Of a DNA stretch of 34,092 bases, positions 4,146 to 27,121 are shown piece after piece. The position numbers were made by a program, and so were the translations under genes. The notes beneath the pieces are model-generated. The model was not told the origin of the DNA. It was given only the letters and a program-made list of their open reading frames with translations, and did not search any database. Source of the stretch: a virus. The stretch lies in IMG/VR virus record IMGVR_UViG_3300033143_001890, positions 1,231-35,322 of that record; one strand, given 5' to 3'. The first letter of the stretch is position 1. Every line of letters begins with the position of its first letter.

Positions 4146-4375
4146 TGATAACCAAAAGAGTGATCAAAGCGTTCGATGCAGCCTGCTCCCCTTGCAAATG
4201 CCAAGGAACACCATACAAGAACACAGGACTGGAGGTACTACCAGTCGAGTGGCGCATGGCCACCAAGGACCAGGCAGGCAAGGTCCGATTCAAATGTCTG
4301 CGGTGCAAACACCGTTGGACCCAGGCCAATGTCCAATGGCAAGGCGACGAGATGGTCTTGGAGGCCGTCCGATGA
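4145..4375 (+). CDS. Zinc-ribbon protein (76 aa), GTG start
   Basis: GTG 4145 shares one base with the upstream TAG. The protein carries C14xxC17xC19 and C51xxC54, with the second knuckle inside FKCLRCKHRWTQ, a pattern typical of nucleic-acid-binding zinc ribbons. The stop overlaps the ATG of the deoxyribonucleotidase gene (4372-4375). Its coupling to the regulator and a nucleotide enzyme makes it part of the same operon; the exact role is unknown. Confidence 0.7.
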   Translation: MITKRVIKAFDAACSPCKCQGTPYKNTGLEVLPVEWRMATKDQAGKVRFKCLRCKHRWTQANVQWQGDEMVLEAVR

Positions 4376-4944
4376 GCGAAAAGAAACGCATTTTATGGGA
4401 TATGGACGGGATTTTGGTGAACCTGCTCAAGCACTGGCTCGACGTCTACAACTCAGAGCATAATGATGACGTACGCATGAAGGACGTGACCACCTGGGAG
4501 ATGCACGACCACGTAAAGATCGGAAAGGCTATCTACAGCATTCCCGCCAGGGCCGGGTTCTTCGATAGTGCCCCTCCAATGGCTGGTGCCATCGGGGCGT
4601 TCAATGCCAGCCAGAAGTATGGGCACGAGAACCTGATCTGCAGCAGCCCATACTACAACCCAGACAGTGCTCGGGCTAAGCACTCATGGTGCCAGCGCTA
4701 TCTAAATACCAAAGCAAAGGACCTGACGCTCACGCACAAGAAGGATTGGCTCGCCCCATCTGTGGACATGATCATTGACGACAAGCCCGAGACCATCCAA
4801 CAGTTCCATGCGCTGGGCAAAGAGGTTGTAACTATCGCCTACCCATACAACGAGCCACAAGCCGACCTATGCACGCTCCGGGCACAGAACATGATCAAGT
4901 CCCAGGACGCCTGGGAAGAGATCACGGAGTTCCTCACCTCATGA
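4372..4944 (+). CDS. HAD-family 5'(3')-deoxyribonucleotidase-like protein (190 aa)
   Basis: The protein has the HAD phosphatase motif order. Motif I is DMDG (nucleophile D10, acid D12), a serine-containing ICSSPYYNP region supplies motif II, a lysine in THKKDW motif III, and IIDDKPE motif IV. Length and the DMDGILVNLL opening match the cytosolic 5'(3')-deoxyribonucleotidase (NT5C) family often found in phages, which removes phosphate from dNMPs. I choose ATG 4372 (ATGA overlap) because the upstream in-frame ATG 4192 would add 60 residues that merely reread the zinc-ribbon gene. It probably tunes deoxynucleotide pools during infection. Confidence 0.8.
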   Translation: MSEKKRILWDMDGILVNLLKHWLDVYNSEHNDDVRMKDVTTWEMHDHVKIGKAIYSIPARAGFFDSAPPMAGAIGAFNASQKYGHENLICSSPYYNPDSARAKHSWCQRYLNTKAKDLTLTHKKDWLAPSVDMIIDDKPETIQQFHALGKEVVTIAYPYNEPQADLCTLRAQNMIKSQDAWEEITEFLTS

Positions 4945-5183: not shown

Positions 5184-5576
5184 GTGGCAAGAAATCCGAT
5201 ACAGTTCCTGCGGCAAGGTGGCAATCAACATCTGGCCGAGCTATTGGGCATGGGACCAAAGGGTATCCAGGTGGTGAACAACTGCAGGACGCCCCAGGAG
5301 GCACAGCAGCGCTTCAAGGAGCTACAAGCGCGGGTACCAAAGCTCTTTAAAGAGCTGGCCTTCACCATGCACCCTGATCGCAGCAAAGACCCCGATGCAA
5401 CAAAGAAGTTCGCAGCGTTGAGCGCCGTGAAGGATGCCCTGCTAGAGCTTCGTATGCAGATCAAGCAGCCACAGCCACAAGCGAGAAGAGTTGTGATCAT
5501 TAGGCAGACGGCGAACACCTCATGGACAAACGCCTCAACAACTACGAGCACTACAACTGGCGGCTGGGGTTGGTAG
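5184..5576 (+). CDS. J-domain (DnaJ-like) protein (130 aa)
   Basis: A J-domain core is visible at residues of about 50-95: helix II (VPKLFKELAFTM) is followed by the invariant HPD tripeptide at 63-65 and then helix III (KKFAALSAVKDALLEL). J-domains stimulate the ATPase of DnaK/Hsp70, so this protein probably recruits the host chaperone. The first 40 residues (FLRQGGNQHLAELLGMG) are unlike bacterial DnaJ, and the C-terminus is a Thr/Ser-rich tail ending GGWGW. No zinc finger or Gly/Phe region of full DnaJ is present. It starts at GTG and lies directly upstream of the phage tmRNA, so two proteostasis functions are adjacent. Confidence 0.8.
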   Translation: MARNPIQFLRQGGNQHLAELLGMGPKGIQVVNNCRTPQEAQQRFKELQARVPKLFKELAFTMHPDRSKDPDATKKFAALSAVKDALLELRMQIKQPQPQARRVVIIRQTANTSWTNASTTTSTTTGGWGW

Positions 5577-5598: not shown

Positions 5599-5958
5599 GG
5601 GAATGAAACAGTTTCGACGGAGGGACAAAGAGACAAGAATGCGTGCTCTGGTTTGTCGAATGGTCAGGTAAAAAATCGACAACTCGTAATTGCAAACGAT
5701 AATACGTTCGCACCTCAAGCTCTCGCAGCCGCGTAAGCTTGACGGGCTGCCTGGAGCCTTGGAACAGAATCCTTGAGCAAGCCGATGGTGGTAAGGTAAA
5801 TATGTCCACCAAGGTCAACTGCCAGTACGACCTCCCAAAAACACTGGCTGGTGGAGGTGCCGTAAAACGCGCCCTAGTTGCCGGACTCAAACCGGATACG
5901 CACGTAGACTTCTTGACTGGATGCTTTTCGGACTCGGGTGCAACTCCCGACATTTCCA
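5599..5958 (+). ncRNA. ssrA: Phage-encoded tmRNA
   Basis: The tRNA-like domain is complete. The 5' arm GGGAATG (5599-5605) pairs all seven positions with CATTTCC (5951-5957), including the G3-U70 wobble that specifies alanine, and A5958 is the discriminator. The signature TTTCGACGG lies at 5613-5621. The T arm is TCGGG-TGCAACT-CCCGA before 5951. Helix P2 forms between 5634-5646 and 5900-5915 (CAAGAA with TTCTTG, GCGTGC with GCACGT). TTGTCGA and TCGACAA fit the first pseudoknot. The reading frame GCA at 5692 to TAA at 5734-5736 encodes the tag ANDNTFAPQALAAA, ending in the hydrophobic ALAAA expected of a degron. CCA is not encoded. Length of 360 nt is normal for bacterial tmRNA. Confidence 0.96.
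5692..5736 (+). other. tmRNA tag reading frame
   Basis: The resume codon is GCA (Ala) and the frame ends with TAA. With the alanine delivered by the tmRNA itself the added peptide would be A-ANDNTFAPQALAAA. The AND start resembles the proteobacterial ANDENYALAA tag, but the tail ends LAAA instead of LAA, which could alter recognition by ClpXP/SspB-type systems. Confidence 0.9.
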
Positions 5959-5979
5959 CTTTGAGCCAAGCGCCTGTAG

Positions 5980-6040: not shown

Positions 6041-6113
6041 CGGACCAAGAAGGAGTTGAACCCTCGACTCCCACGGGATTAAGGTGGGCGCGATACCGTT
6101 TCGCCATTGGTCC
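6041..6113 (-). tRNA. tRNA-like gene with 9-nt anticodon loop (Leu-TAA or Ile-AAT)
   Basis: Reverse strand. The acceptor GGACCAA/TTGGTCC, D-stem GCGA/TCGC with AACGGTA loop, and T arm GAGGG-TTCAACT-CCTTC are all well formed, with a 4-nt variable loop and G discriminator. The anticodon stem is CCCAC/GTGGG, but its loop is nine bases, CTTAATCCC, instead of seven. Taking U33 as the second base gives anticodon TAA (Leu); trimming one base per side gives AAT (Ile). No CCA is encoded. It is one of two adjacent tRNAs opposite to every protein gene. Confidence 0.8.
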
Positions 6114-6117
6114 TTGG

Positions 6118-6192
6118 TGCGGAGGGATGGAATCGAACCACCGAGAATTGCAGCCGAAACACACAATTGCCCTACCATTAGGCGACCTCCGC
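6118..6192 (-). tRNA. tRNA-like gene with enlarged anticodon arm (possibly Glu-TTC)
   Basis: Reverse strand, 4 nt from the other tRNA. The acceptor GCGGAGG/CCTCCGC is perfect, the D arm is GCCT-AATGGTA-GGGC, the T arm is GGTGG-TTCGATT-CCATC, and A is the discriminator. The anticodon arm is anomalous: the best fold extends the stem to 6 bp (ATTGTG/TGCAAT) and leaves a 9-nt loop TGTTTCGGC; forcing a 5-bp stem gives an 11-nt loop. The central triplet would be TTC (Glu). Elbow and acceptor domains look functional, so the molecule may be a modified tRNA or a tRNA mimic. Confidence 0.75.
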
Positions 6193-6581: not shown

Positions 6582-7094
6582 GTGGAGAGAAAAAGAAAAT
6601 TTATTTTCGACGACACTGTGAAGCAGACGTTCCTTGAGTCTGTGAGGCGTACAGGTCTGGTGGCCAAGTCAGCTAGGGCGGCGGGCACGAGCAGCGTACG
6701 AGTCAGGGCTGAGTGTGAGCACGATGATGAATTCGCTGCGGACATGCAGGAGTCCCTGCTCGTGTACGCCGAGTCTGTCCAAGAGGAACTGCACCGCCGC
6801 GCCGTCGATGGTGTGGAGGAGACGGTGTACTTCCAAGGAACCCCCTGTGGGACTAAGACCAACTACAGTGATGCGCTTCTCACCACACTGGTGAAGGCCA
6901 AGAGCCCCGAGTTCCGCGAGAAGCTCTCCGTGGACACCACCATCCATGGGGGGGTGCTGCTACTGCCAGCAGCAGCGCCGACAAGAGAAGCGTGGCTAGA
7001 GGCCACCAAACCCGCCGAGCTTCCTGCCCCAAGTGAGGAAGAAGAAGAGAATATTATCGATGTCGAAGAAGCCGAGCCAGCCCCCATCGGATGA
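6582..7094 (+). CDS. terS: Terminase small subunit (170 aa)
   Basis: The N-terminal half fits a TerS helix-turn-helix: FLESVRRTGLVAKSARAAG followed by a recognition segment (residues of about 15-45), then a helical oligomerisation region with HDDEFAADMQESL. The C-terminus is acidic (EEEEENIIDVEEAEP), as is common for the region contacting TerL. TerS rings bind the packaging site and regulate the large subunit. It starts at GTG with almost no leader behind the operator-bearing promoter, and its 3' end overlaps terL. The order TerS-TerL-portal supports the assignment more strongly than the primary sequence does. Confidence 0.75.
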   Translation: MERKRKFIFDDTVKQTFLESVRRTGLVAKSARAAGTSSVRVRAECEHDDEFAADMQESLLVYAESVQEELHRRAVDGVEETVYFQGTPCGTKTNYSDALLTTLVKAKSPEFREKLSVDTTIHGGVLLLPAAAPTREAWLEATKPAELPAPSEEEEENIIDVEEAEPAPIG

Positions 7095-10193: not shown

Positions 10194-10467
10194 AGATCAG
10201 AAAGAAGCTTCAAAGATCATAGCGGAGAGTGCAGAGATGTCAAAAACCATGGCACTCATGATCTTCGGCTTCGGGCGCACCATGACCATGCTCACGTTCA
10301 AGCCCAAGCAGGCTGCCGCGCACTGCGCACAGGCAGTGGATGAGTTGACTCTAATGGCCGACCAAATGACAGCGCTCGCTGAGCGGATCATTGAGTGGGA
10401 CGAGCAGAAATTGATCGTCCCTGGGAAGACCCTTGTGGACACGAACAACAAACCGCTCGCCCAATGA
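10180..10467 (+). CDS. Small helical protein (95 aa)
   Basis: Starts at ATG 10180 inside the portal tail (ATG 10186 is an alternative). It is helical, rich in A and M with several methionine-containing segments (SKTMALMIFGFGRTMTML), and has no recognised domain. Its stop overlaps the next gene by ATGA at 10464-10467. Its place between portal and minor head genes suggests a virion or assembly role, but an accessory insertion together with the following enzyme gene is equally possible. Confidence 0.6.
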   Translation: MAMNRDQKEASKIIAESAEMSKTMALMIFGFGRTMTMLTFKPKQAAAHCAQAVDELTLMADQMTALAERIIEWDEQKLIVPGKTLVDTNNKPLAQ

Positions 10468-10886
10468 CCATGGGTAAGAAAGAGAGTTTGTTCGTGAAGA
10501 AGGAATTGACCCCGGATACCAACGGGTTTGTAAAAGGGGACGTAGGTAAAAAATACCGCCCCGAGCTTGTGCCAGTAGAGTTCCGATCAGGTATGGCAGA
10601 GATCCTCGCTGAGGGTGCTGTTGAGTACGGGGACAACAACTGGAAGAAATGCACTGACCCAAAGCGGTACATCGGTGCGTTCATGCGGCACGTCGAGTCC
10701 TACGAGCGTGGAGAGAAGATCGACCCCAAGAGCGGGCATCATACGTTGCTACACGCAGCCTGCTGCATCATGATGCTGCATGGAATCGATCTAATCATGA
10801 GTCCAGAAAAGTCCAATGTGGAGATCCTACAGGATGCACTGGCGGCGAGCGCGTCACAAATGCCAGACCCAGGTGGCCTCTACTAG
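10464..10886 (+). CDS. dATP/dGTP diphosphohydrolase-like protein (140 aa)
   Basis: The segment from about residue 30 to 110 matches the phage family annotated as dATP/dGTP diphosphohydrolase N-terminal domain, an all-helical MazG-like fold: YRPELVPVEF, AEGAVEYGDNNWKK, YIGAFMRHVESYERGEKIDP, and SGHHTLLHAACC. Acidic and histidine residues in EGAVEYG and HHTLLHAA are candidate metal or substrate ligands. Such enzymes hydrolyse purine dNTPs and can bias nucleotide pools. ATG 10464 overlaps the upstream stop; an earlier in-frame ATG at 10395 would reread the preceding gene. A nucleotide enzyme inside the head operon is unusual. Confidence 0.7.
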   Translation: MTMGKKESLFVKKELTPDTNGFVKGDVGKKYRPELVPVEFRSGMAEILAEGAVEYGDNNWKKCTDPKRYIGAFMRHVESYERGEKIDPKSGHHTLLHAACCIMMLHGIDLIMSPEKSNVEILQDALAASASQMPDPGGLY

Positions 10887-12895: not shown

Positions 12896-13861
12896 ATGGC
12901 CAGCGTTACCCTTGCAGAATCTGCAAAACTCTCTCAAGACGATATGGTCATCGGGCTCATTGAGTCGATTGTTACCGTAGACAAATTTTTCCAGATGGTC
13001 CCTTTCGACGGACTTGAAGGCAACGCGATTGCTTACAATCGTGAGTTGACCGCTGGCACGGTTGCCACTGTCGCCACTGGCGAGGACATTGGTCCTGACG
13101 TTGCCGCTGGCAACAACCAGGCAGAGCGAACAGCTGCCAAAGACGCCGCGACCTTCACACAGGTCACTAGCGCACTCACCACGATCATGGGTGATGCAGA
13201 AGTCAACCAGCTCATTCAACAGACTCGTTCTGATAAGAATGACCAAACTGGTGTCCAGATCGCATCGAAGGCCAAGAGCGCTGGACGCAAGTACCAGAAC
13301 CTCTTGATCAACGGCGTGGCTGGCGCGAACAACGAGTTCGCTGGATTGCTCACTCTGGTCCCTGCCGCCCAGAAGGTCGGCACCGCTGCGAACGGAGAGG
13401 CTCTCTCTTTCGCTATCCTCGACGAGCTGATGGATCTCCCCATCGACAAGGATGGTCAAGTTGACTATTTCATGATGCCTCGACGAACTCTCCGTGCCTA
13501 CCAAGCTCTGCTTCGTGGCCTCGGTGGAGCGAGCATCGGTGATGTTCAAACTCTTCCTGATGGAACCCAGGTTCCAGCGTACCGTGGTGTTCCGATCTTC
13601 GTGAACGACTACATCCCGGTCGATCAGGTCAAGGGTGGCTCTGGTGCTGTCTGCACCACGATCTTAGCTGGTACGTTCGATGATGGTTCTCGAACCATCG
13701 GTATCGCTGGCCTCACCGCCACGAACCAGAACGGCCTCCACGTTGAAGACGTCGGCATCCACTTTACTCGTGATGAGCGAGTGTGGCGTGTCAAGTGGTA
13801 CTGCGGACTCGCACTCTTCAGCGAGCTGGGTATCGCCAGCGCTGACGGCATCACCAACTAG
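12896..13861 (+). CDS. Major capsid protein, HK97-like fold (321 aa)
   Basis: It follows scaffold and has the strongest ribosome binding site in the window (AGGAGG, 7-nt spacing). The sequence fits an HK97-type coat protein: N-terminal arm, an extended beta-rich E-loop region (LEGNAIAYNRELTAGTVATV, residues of about 40-60), a spine helix zone with ASKAKSAGRKYQNLLINGVAG, the P-domain pattern MMPRRTLRAYQALLRG, and a C-terminal A-domain segment with PVPAYRGVPIFVNDYIP-like residues (QVPAYRGVPIFVNDYIP). At 321 residues it is of normal size. It is flanked by a terminator on each side and forms its own unit for high expression. Confidence 0.9.
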   Translation: MASVTLAESAKLSQDDMVIGLIESIVTVDKFFQMVPFDGLEGNAIAYNRELTAGTVATVATGEDIGPDVAAGNNQAERTAAKDAATFTQVTSALTTIMGDAEVNQLIQQTRSDKNDQTGVQIASKAKSAGRKYQNLLINGVAGANNEFAGLLTLVPAAQKVGTAANGEALSFAILDELMDLPIDKDGQVDYFMMPRRTLRAYQALLRGLGGASIGDVQTLPDGTQVPAYRGVPIFVNDYIPVDQVKGGSGAVCTTILAGTFDDGSRTIGIAGLTATNQNGLHVEDVGIHFTRDERVWRVKWYCGLALFSELGIASADGITN

Positions 13862-23887: not shown

Positions 23888-26800
23888 GTGGCAACTCTAC
23901 AGGGTGCATCAGATTGCGCGTCCGCTGCAACACTTGTTGGAGCAGGTGTCCTCAATGATGTTGGCAGCCCTGGTGATTACATCACGTACACTGACAGCAC
24001 CACAACACTGACAGCCACGACGACTCCCCAAACGCTCACCTGGGGAAGCCATTACCACACAAAGGGTACAGGGCTTTCCTACTCCGCTGGACAGTTCAGA
24101 GTTCATGCGTCTGTACCTTATCTGATCAATTACTGCCAGGCATGGGAGACCTCCGACAATACGTCTGGAGAGACCATTCAGATACAGTCGGAGATCCTTG
24201 TAAACGGTATAGCTATCGAGGCCGGTAAAGGCTACGGCTACATCTCAAAGGCGGGTGGCGCACAAGAGTGTACGATAGGAGGCAAGGCCATCGTAGAGTT
24301 GCTGGCAGGAGATGTAGTAGAGATCAGTTACTACAGGACTGATGACTCTACGGTAGGTACCGTAACAAGAATGTCCGATTGGGGGACGTTCGGTGTATTG
24401 GAGCTGTCGGACACTGATGAGTATGGAATTTATCATACAGCCGGATCAGATACGACAACCGGATCATTCGTAACGCTACCATTTGACACAGTAGACAGGG
24501 AGGACGCCGCGTTCACGATGAACACCAGCACTGGTGTTCTGACGATCAACACGACTGGTACCTACGTGATGACCGTTGGTGGTGATGCATCGATCTCCAC
24601 AACCAATACTACGGAGGCGTACTTAGAGGTAATACTCAACAGCACTCGCATAGAGGGGGCTAGATCATACTGTTTGATGAATGGTGCGGATGCGTGCCAG
24701 GACGCAGCCTTTTCTCAGATGTTCATGTTTGAGGCGGTTGCCACAGACACAGTTAAAATTCAAATAGCCGATGAGGGTGACACAGTAACGTTTGGCGCCG
24801 GATTCCAATGGGCTTTATGGGAGCTTCCAGTAAACAAGAAGACCATCATCTTAGAGGCGACTGGTGGCAACATGAATGTTGGCTACAACAGCTTCGACTG
24901 GGACACGATCAAACAGATAGATCAGTACGAGTTCTCCCACATAGTGGGGGAGGACGAGATAAAGATGCGTGCGGCAGACAACCATCTTTTCATGCTGAGT
25001 ATTGCCAGGACCACATCATCTACTGCTGCTAACACGCTTCCCAGAGGGGACATACAAGTCAACAACTCCTACACCCGGCGGGCGGTGGATACTTTTTACA
25101 ATGTTGGTACAGGAAACTTCGGAAAGGTTTCGTATAACAACGTTCTGGTAACAACAGATACGGCGGTCTACAACCCACCAGACCTTTCCGTAAGACTAGT
25201 CTGTGTCCCGTGGGGGAGTGGGACATCAGTAGAGGCTTCGACAGGGCAGTTCGCAGCTGTACGTATAATCGACCTCTGGGATGACCTCACTGTTAAATCA
25301 GCCGCTGATGCAACGAGTGCGTTCACAGTCACCGCCGCAGGTACGGTTGCCACAGGTGCAGCACAGGGTGCGTCCACACCAGCTTCCGACTTTGCTGTCA
25401 CGGCTGCAGGTACTCGACACGCTGCCGGTGCGGCGACACCCGCATCAGCCTTCACAGCAACAGCAGATGGGAATGTAGCCGAGGCTACATTCCAAGGTGC
25501 CGCGACACCTGCATCAGACTTCGCAGCCACCGCCGCTGGCCTCATGTTCACGCCAGGCTCCGCGACACCTGCATCAGACTTCGCAGCCACAGCCGCTGGC
25601 CTAATGGTCACACCTGGTGTCGCGACACACGCTTCCGATTTCGCAGTGACCGCTGATGCGATTGCCACAGTACAGGCAGCCGCAGACGCTGCCAGCGATC
25701 ATGCTGCCACCGCAGTGGCTACTCGACACGCTGCGGGTGCTGCCGATGCAGCAAGTGACTTCACTGCGACCGCTGCTGGTACTATAGCAACAGCCACATT
25801 ACAAGGATCGGCCACACCGTCATCCGACTTCACCGCAACCGCCGCAGCGTTGATGGTGACCCCAGGTGCTGCTGATGTAGCAAGTGATCACGACGTCGCC
25901 GCTGCAGCTACGCTCACATCGCAGGGGTCCGCAACCCCATCTTCCGATTTCGTGGCCACGGCTGATGCAACGCTCACGTCCCAGGGCGGTGCAGACGCTA
26001 CCAGCGATCACACGGCCACAGCAGCTGGCCTAATGGTCACACCTGGTGCAGCGACACCTGCATCAGACTTCGCAGCCACCGCAGCTGGCCTAATGGTCAC
26101 TCCGGGTGCTGCAGATACTACCAGCGATCACACGGCCTCAGCCGCTGGCCTAATGGTCACCCCAGGTGCTGCGACACCTGCTTCCGATTTCGTGGCCACG
26201 GCTGATGCAACGCTCACGTCCCAGGGCGTGGCAGACGCTACCAGCGATCACACGGCCACAGCCGACGCGATTGCCACAGTGCAGGCAGCTGCAGACGCTG
26301 TCAGTGATTTTGAAGTCACAGCCGCAGGTATTGCCGGTGGGCAGGGGCAGGCGTTCTGTGTATCTGATCATTCAGTCACGGCGTCCGGCCTAATGGTCGC
26401 TCCGGGTGCTGCAGATGCTACCAGCGATCACACTGCCACCGCCGTAGCCACTCGACACGTAGTCGCTGCCGCCACACCAGCCTCCGACTTCACAGCAACC
26501 GCAGCTGGTACTCGACATGTAGTAGGTGCGGCCACACCAGCATCCGATTTCACAGCAACATCAGTAGCCACGTACCGAGCACAGTCTACAGCAGCCGCCG
26601 CGTCCGACTTTGAAGTCACGGCAAACAACAACGTCACCTTGCAGGCTGGTGCAGATGCCGCATCTGCGTTCACGGCCACAGCTGAGGGTGCGGCAATCGG
26701 TACTGAGGTGGGTGTAGCTGATGCAGTGTCCGCGTTCACGGCCACGTCTACAGCAACCGCGATAATTAGATCGTCATCGAGTCCGACTACGGCATTTGTC

Positions 26801-27121
26801 GCCACGGCGGCCGCGACTAAAAAATCAATCGGTGCAGCCGTAGTACTCACTCAGTCGCAGGCGTCGTTCGTAGGACTGCGAGTGACCCCTGGCCTAGCCG
26901 CGATCATCTCCGATTTTGATGCCACGGCAGTAGGTAACACCGGACAACTCCCTGGAGAGGCCCTCGCGGTCACAGCCTTCCTGCTAACCGCACGCGGTAC
27001 TTATGCAGGTCCCAAGCTGCCCATCGCTGGGCAAATCTCCCCAGGTCTCACGGTCGGTGGTGATGTGGTGGAGGACCTAGGCTACGCAGCAACGATCTCA
27101 GCTGAGGAGACCATTCAGTAA
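23888..27121 (+). CDS. Giant repeat-bearing structural protein (1077 aa)
   Basis: GTG 23888 has the purine-rich AGGAAGGA about 10 nt upstream. The first 470 residues contain three beta-sandwich-like units resembling C1q/TNF-type jelly rolls (for example YHTAGSDTTTGSFVTLPFD followed by NTTGTYVMTVGGDASI). From about residue 470 to 1030 come about 28 tandem copies of a 20-residue unit with core ASDFxATAxGLMVTPGAATP; three units carry a 3-residue insertion. A short conserved tail ends GQISPGLTVGGDVVEDL and ISAEETIQ. There are no signal or membrane segments. It is probably a long fibre or surface-display protein whose length can change by repeat recombination. Confidence 0.8.
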   Translation: MATLQGASDCASAATLVGAGVLNDVGSPGDYITYTDSTTTLTATTTPQTLTWGSHYHTKGTGLSYSAGQFRVHASVPYLINYCQAWETSDNTSGETIQIQSEILVNGIAIEAGKGYGYISKAGGAQECTIGGKAIVELLAGDVVEISYYRTDDSTVGTVTRMSDWGTFGVLELSDTDEYGIYHTAGSDTTTGSFVTLPFDTVDREDAAFTMNTSTGVLTINTTGTYVMTVGGDASISTTNTTEAYLEVILNSTRIEGARSYCLMNGADACQDAAFSQMFMFEAVATDTVKIQIADEGDTVTFGAGFQWALWELPVNKKTIILEATGGNMNVGYNSFDWDTIKQIDQYEFSHIVGEDEIKMRAADNHLFMLSIARTTSSTAANTLPRGDIQVNNSYTRRAVDTFYNVGTGNFGKVSYNNVLVTTDTAVYNPPDLSVRLVCVPWGSGTSVEASTGQFAAVRIIDLWDDLTVKSAADATSAFTVTAAGTVATGAAQGASTPASDFAVTAAGTRHAAGAATPASAFTATADGNVAEATFQGAATPASDFAATAAGLMFTPGSATPASDFAATAAGLMVTPGVATHASDFAVTADAIATVQAAADAASDHAATAVATRHAAGAADAASDFTATAAGTIATATLQGSATPSSDFTATAAALMVTPGAADVASDHDVAAAATLTSQGSATPSSDFVATADATLTSQGGADATSDHTATAAGLMVTPGAATPASDFAATAAGLMVTPGAADTTSDHTASAAGLMVTPGAATPASDFVATADATLTSQGVADATSDHTATADAIATVQAAADAVSDFEVTAAGIAGGQGQAFCVSDHSVTASGLMVAPGAADATSDHTATAVATRHVVAAATPASDFTATAAGTRHVVGAATPASDFTATSVATYRAQSTAAAASDFEVTANNNVTLQAGADAASAFTATAEGAAIGTEVGVADAVSAFTATSTATAIIRSSSSPTTAFVATAAATKKSIGAAVVLTQSQASFVGLRVTPGLAAIISDFDATAVGNTGQLPGEALAVTAFLLTARGTYAGPKLPIAGQISPGLTVGGDVVEDLGYAATISAEETIQ
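25290..26980 (+). repeat. 60-bp coding tandem repeats (about 28 units)
   Basis: The 20-residue repeats are visible in DNA as 60-bp units, some nearly identical (for example around 25500-25610 and 26030-26170). Blocks such as gcagctggcctaatggtcac recur exactly. Units alternate between PASDF and ATSDH types, suggesting that duplication copied pairs. The same repetition creates a spurious ORF on the other strand. Confidence 0.9.

Follow-up and report, generated by a model that had tools for sequence, protein, structure and literature searches.

A phage-encoded one-piece tmRNA with an AAA-ending tag in a Yuavirus-like genome

The tmRNA locus and its carrier phage

The window, i.e., the whole stretch of 34,092 nucleotides analyzed here, belongs to a viral record of 35,322 bases that is classed as linear and is probably a fragment; named relatives have genomes of ~47–62 kb. 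It carries a gene for tmRNA, the RNA that releases stalled ribosomes and marks their incomplete products for degradation. This gene lies between a J-domain-like gene and two opposite-strand tRNAs, upstream of the terminase genes. Two viral records served for close comparison: L002, a close relative of the phage with a capsid 94% identical to that of the window, and L077 (IMGVR_UViG_3300033148_008025, a 121 kb viral contig), the tmRNA of which is 72.6% identical over the full gene. The features of the locus are as follows.

5184..5576 (+): upstream gene weakly matching the J-domain (Pfam DnaJ, E 1.7e-5, 25.2 bits), absent from L002 along with the tmRNA
5599..5958 (+): tmRNA (ssrA) gene, one-piece, 360 nt, CCA not encoded (ARAGORN; RF00023, 98.3 bits; full-length homologue L077)
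5599..5605 (+): 5' strand of the P1 acceptor stem, GGGAAUG, pairing with 5951-5957 and including the G3-U70 alanine identity pair (sequence; identical in L077)
5606..5624 (+): D-loop analogue AAACAGUUUCGACGG and start of P2, with A replacing G18 (A18/G55 co-change)
5634..5646 (+): 5' strand of the P2 helix, partner 5900-5915 (stems of 7 and 6 bp conserved in L077, with one compensatory pair)
5647..5682 (+): PK1 pseudoknot, stem 1 at ~5647-5651/5664-5668 and stem 2 at 5653-5659/5676-5682 (two double compensatory changes per stem compared to L077)
5692..5736 (+): tag reading frame, GCA...GCG TAA, encoding ANDNTFAPQALAAA and a stop (ARAGORN)
5934..5950 (+): T arm with loop UGCAACU, G replacing U55 (one compensatory change in the stem compared to L077; loop covaries with the D-loop)
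5951..5958 (+): 3' strand of P1, CAUUUCC, and discriminator A (sequence)
6041..6113 (-): tRNA (called Ile-AAT) with a 9-nt anticodon loop (RF00005, 53.7 bits; fold)
6118..6192 (-): tRNA with an enlarged anticodon loop, missed by ARAGORN (RF00005, 48.5 bits)
6582..7094 (+): terminase small subunit, start of the downstream packaging genes (phrog_4044, E 5.7e-35)
12896..13861 (+): major capsid protein, 63% identical to Yuavirus (phrog_212; tblastn)

A complete one-piece tmRNA at 5599-5959 (+) with the tag ANDNTFAPQALAAA was the sole tmRNA reported by ARAGORN in the window. The Rfam covariance model RF00023 (gathering score 47 bits) matched 5599-5961 over its entire length (positions 1-374 of 374) with 98.3 bits and an E-value of 2.1e-37. 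Given this score and the full-length homologue in L077, a chance origin of the match is excluded, and the phage-borne tmRNA gene is real. The discriminator A5958 is followed by CUU, so the CCA must be added post-transcriptionally. The first-pass annotation had placed a complete phage-encoded tmRNA at 5599-5958, between a J-domain gene and tRNAs, and had proposed a covariance-model check. The two programs agree with this placement, the reading of P1 and discriminator makes its ends exact, and the flanking genes were found as described, the J-domain match (25.2 bits) being just under the Pfam DnaJ cut-off of 27.8 bits. No relative of the J-domain gene was detected by tblastn in named phages. Promoter and terminator scans recognized no such site at the tmRNA gene, and folding of the stretch downstream yielded nothing usable.

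Terminase, portal, major capsid, and tail proteins were recognized in the record. The capsid is 63% identical to those of Yuavirus phages, e.g., M6, PAE1, and Sphaerotilus phage SN1, the large terminase is 55–57% identical to those of Mesyanzhinovviridae (Yuavirus and relatives), and the portal matched phrog_145 (E 3e-112). The homologous capsid, portal, and terminase indicate that the carrier phage is related to Yuavirus (Mesyanzhinovviridae); it is termed Yuavirus-like here. No nucleotide similarity to named phages was found. By major capsid protein, the closest relatives are viral contigs to which no named host is assigned; hosts of the named relatives include Pseudomonas, Sphaerotilus, and Caulobacter. 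The record, which is incomplete, contains no SmpB gene, and the phage tmRNA therefore probably needs the SmpB of its host.

Both neighboring tRNAs appear to have enlarged anticodon loops. In the first (6041-6113), the stem CCCAC/GUGGG encloses CUUAAUCCC, a loop of 9 nt, and ARAGORN assigned Ile(AAT). In the second (6118-6192), the stem AUUGU/GCAAU encloses GUGUUUCGGCU, a loop of 11 nt, or of 9 nt after a G-U pair. These tRNAs could be anticodon-nuclease-resistant, frameshifting, or degenerate. Elsewhere in the window, an ORF of 1077 aa (23888-27121) contains 60/120-bp tandem repeats at 24800-27121 that encode ASDFTATA-like units; its product is perhaps a repetitive tail or fiber protein. Genes at 4192-4944 and 10395-10886 encode an NT5C-type 5' deoxynucleotidase and a protein with a dATP/dGTP diphosphohydrolase N-terminal domain, respectively; these genes act on the nucleotide pool and may hint at modified DNA.

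Fold of the tmRNA and compensatory changes

The tRNA-like domain consists of the G3-U70 acceptor stem (5599-5605/5951-5957) and the T arm (5934-5950). PK1 precedes the alanine resume codon GCA at 5692, and UUUCGACGG is present alongside P2 and PK1. Thus, all of the elements that had been noticed from the letters alone, i.e., paired arms, G3-U70, UUUCGACGG, P2, a pseudoknot, and a tag frame, were recovered.

Comparison with L077 revealed compensatory changes in several helices. In PK1 stem 1 (5647-5653/5662-5668), UCUGGUU/GGUCAGG in the window corresponds to CGAGGUU/GGCCUCG in L077, and in stem 2 (5653-5659/5676-5682), UUGUCGA/UCGACAA corresponds to UAAUCGA/UCGAUUA; each stem shows two double compensatory changes. 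One compensatory change each was found in P2 (5640-5646/5900-5906) and in the T stem (5934-5938/5946-5950). A column-shuffle control, in which stems of ≥5 bp with ≥2 double changes were counted for the two sequences, gave three observed stems compared to a shuffled mean of 0.85 and a maximum of 3. This global two-sequence statistic is weak, and what carries weight is the location of the changes in canonical helices. The region after the tag, where PK2–PK4 are expected, had a low posterior probability in the covariance model, the comparison being again one of two sequences. A missing covariance-model match and missing compensatory changes in relatives had been named beforehand as grounds for rejecting the tmRNA; in view of the match and of the changes in PK1, P2, and the T stem, the tmRNA was not refuted.

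The T-loop of the window reads UGCAACU, in contrast to the UUCRANU of most tmRNAs, with U55 replaced by G. Likewise, the D-loop has CAG in place of CGG, i.e., A for G18. Among the 266 tmRNAs collected here that could be parsed (78 entries could not, and three further rows arose from a T-loop matched as D-loop), A18 was paired with G55 in 17 of 17 cases and G18 with U55 in 249 of 249. G55 is also present in alphaproteobacterial tmRNAs, with an AAACAG D-loop where readable, and a U-to-G change at T-loop site 55 was reported earlier for Caulobacter (PMC1168896). As A18 and G55 always occur together, the odd T-loop of the window appears to retain the tertiary contact with the D-loop through the A18-G55 combination. 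The paired change is consistent with a working tRNA-like fold. A reading of G55 as the sign of a damaged T-loop was rejected in view of the strict covariation and its occurrence in Alphaproteobacteria.

The compensatory changes and the paired T-loop/D-loop change together show the predicted RNA to be intact and evolutionarily constrained in the phage genome, and not a remnant. This bears on the idea that the gene is a functionless passenger or a decaying host fragment, derived from imprecise prophage excision or from an attachment-site copy of the host ssrA. ssrA is a common integration site of phages and islands, which can carry fragments of it (PMC3146451, PMC9004378), and the block containing the tmRNA is absent from L002. 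Against this, the gene is present in full length instead of as a 3' fragment, with an intact P1 and tag frame, the helices are kept by compensatory changes, and no near-copy was found among the cellular tmRNAs sampled. This origin, already disfavored, is considered very unlikely. Even less probable is a decoy that would titrate host SmpB or alanyl-tRNA synthetase and thereby inhibit host trans-translation: although a molecule like the RNA of phage DS6A, which consists of the tRNA-like domain only, strongly inhibits tmRNA (PMC4131195), the tmRNA of the window differs from that of DS6A in having retained an mRNA-like part, PK1, and a tag frame closed by a stop codon. Instead, we estimate a probability of roughly 80% that the tmRNA of the window is a working accessory ribosome-rescue RNA.

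Relatives and known tmRNA systems

No RF00023 match was found in five named Mesyanzhinovviridae-type phage records (PAE1, SN1, PAKlein3, AIIMS-Plu-RaNi, and M6), in seven further viral contigs, or in the records L002, L009, L013, and L022; the contigs among these may be fragments. With 0 of 16 other records positive, tmRNA is not a usual gene of Yuavirus or the Mesyanzhinovviridae. In L002, a small zinc-ribbon-like gene is followed almost directly by a partial tRNA matching the second tRNA of the window. The alignment resumes at window position 6167, and L002 lacks the whole J-domain gene, tmRNA, and first tRNA along with half of the second tRNA. The partial tRNA (L002:320-400), at the site of the J-domain/tmRNA/tRNA block, is a possible deletion scar and suggests that the block was lost in L002, gain in the lineage of the window being the alternative. 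Since the relatives checked have no tmRNA and L002 is devoid of the J-domain/tmRNA block, the tmRNA is, judged from these genomes, an accessory gene dispensable to this phage group.

As a separate observation, the large terminase gene of L002 (L002:2253-4808) is interrupted in frame, at its Walker A motif (GPGK...HNT), by an insertion of ~340 aa. The insertion has a LAGLIDADG domain (Pfam, E 6e-13) and is absent from the terminase of the window. It is probably an intein, with an atypical first residue (M) after GPGK.

L077 carries the only close homologue in the collections searched; two scans of IMG/VR with exact conserved blocks gave no other. The two tmRNAs have an identical P1 and share the unencoded CCA, but L077 differs in its AVA tag tail and the normal G18/U55 combination. 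The L077 record gave no match to the terminase of the window. In a tree of one-piece tmRNAs, the two were sisters with a support of 0.99. As the deeper placement of the pair, beside Bacteroidota on long branches, was unstable, no donor is claimed. When the entire tmRNA was compared at the DNA level with five cellular genomes, an approach too insensitive for this purpose, nothing was returned.

Compared to the one-piece bacterial tmRNA described by RF00023, the window has the same elements in the same order, namely the tRNA-like domain, P2, PK1, GCA resume codon, tag with UAA stop, and downstream domain. It differs in the unencoded CCA and in the T-loop G55 with D-loop A18. Furthermore, its downstream pseudoknot region aligns poorly with the model, and its 98 bits compare to ~104–289 bits for the great majority of full-length cellular hits.

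Phage-encoded tmRNAs are also known from mycobacteriophage Bxz1 and relatives, Bacillus phage G, and methylophage Melnitz (PMC4131195, PMC9004378). These belong to other phage groups, and the Melnitz tmRNA is two-piece and riboswitch-linked, whereas that of the window is one-piece and resides in a Yuavirus-like genome. Earlier lists comprised mycobacteriophages and Bacillus phage G (PMC4131195), and huge phages carry tmRNA together with SmpB (PMC7162821). tmRNA genes were reported in 402 of 18,146 phage genomes, i.e., 2.3% (PMC9004378), and at least 120 IMG/VR stretches matched one strict tmRNA pattern. The statement in the first-pass annotation that tmRNAs are known in a few phages such as some mycobacteriophages was out of date. 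Phage tmRNAs are uncommon but not extraordinary, and that of the window is ordinary in kind.

The tag peptide and its proposed role

The tag frame occupies gene positions 94-138, with the UAA stop at 5734-5736, and has a hydrophobic C-terminus, the last three residues being AAA and not LAA. The tag of L077, ANDNSFAPALAAVA, ends in AVA. Both are thus without LAA and both extend an ALAA core. The AAA tail noted in the first reading was confirmed, but the tag start, likened there to the proteobacterial AND tag, is not generically proteobacterial: the core ANDN-x-FAP...A is most like alphaproteobacterial tags such as ANDNFAPVAQAA and ANDNYAPVALAA, which belong to two-piece tmRNAs.

A scan of a genome collection of 84,980 species with an ...LAAA tag pattern gave 40 stretches, most of which were Halanaerobiales (ANDNNYALAAA) and Magnetococcales (ANDEHYAPALAAA) tmRNAs confirmed by ARAGORN. 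A second sample added L253, L362, L363, and L378 to the LAAA-tail tmRNAs. The C-terminal LAAA is hence shared between these two orders and the window, and the Magnetococcales tmRNA additionally shares the AP...ALAAA layout and the one-piece form. Both orders differ from the window in the N-terminal halves of the tags and in G18 or C18 with U55, and show no close overall similarity. As LAAA is the clade-wide norm in Halanaerobiales and Magnetococcales, an AAA tail is uncommon yet not foreign to cells, and LAAA by itself does not mark a non-host tag. The proposal that the tail steers rescued peptides away from the route of the host degron was therefore unsupported.

A scan for viral LAAA tags by pattern gave 21 matches, none of which was a tmRNA according to ARAGORN. 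Other viral tags end in AAA, ANA, or MVA. Three viral two-piece tmRNAs (L057, L084, and L123) have tags ending in AANA (ANDSHFLQAANA, ANDAQFLQAANA, and ANDANFKVAANA), an ending absent from the cellular sample.

The proposed mechanism would start with transcription of the tmRNA in the infected cell, trimming by host RNase P, and CCA addition by the host nucleotidyltransferase. Alanine would be charged by virtue of the G3-U70 pair. Together with host SmpB, the tmRNA would free ribosomes that stall on truncated mRNAs in the course of infection, and AANDNTFAPQALAAA would be appended to the incomplete protein. Proteins carrying this tag are most likely still targeted to host proteolysis of the ClpXP type, if perhaps less strongly than with an LAA tail.

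The E. coli tag is contacted by ClpX at its terminal residues and at the carboxylate; altering the final two residues raises KM for ClpXP, whereas replacement of the antepenultimate leucine causes only a modest rise (PMC7652416). A synthetic AAV variant was degraded more slowly, but not spared (PMC9382460). By analogy with these data, the AAA tail should still act as a degron, if possibly a less effective one.

The tail could instead be an adaptation. AAA, AVA, and ANA ends would weaken recognition by ClpX; ribosomes would still be released, but tagged phage proteins would avoid being rapidly degraded or would reach another protease. The missing LAA in both the window and L077 and the KM effects in E. 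coli agree with this, as does an excess of tags not ending in a non-alanine residue followed by AA (9/89 viral compared to 7/202 cellular outside Magnetococcales; Fisher p 0.046), although these counts ignore phylogeny and host. On distinct tags, the excess is not significant (9/66 compared to 7/118, p 0.10), the same tail is used by whole cellular clades, and the AAV variant argues for slowing and not for escape. The virus-wide bias in tag tails thus seems borderline only, with no viral trend established. We consider an adaptive tail unlikely, and a separate class of phage tmRNAs selected for non-LAA tails (AAA, AVA, ANA) is doubtful to a slightly greater degree; rerouting or altered degradation by the phage tag is hypothetical.

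The tmRNA described here, in our preferred reading a working ribosome-rescue RNA, is an addition to a Yuavirus-like phage group; the 16 other records inspected here show no such gene. The related phage tags ALAAA and ALAAVA, which extend the normal ALAA core, make degradation relative to the host tag testable. If a separate class did exist, ribosome rescue would be uncoupled from fast ClpXP degradation during infection; if the phage tags do not slow degradation compared to the host tag, the phage would perform routine ribosome rescue.
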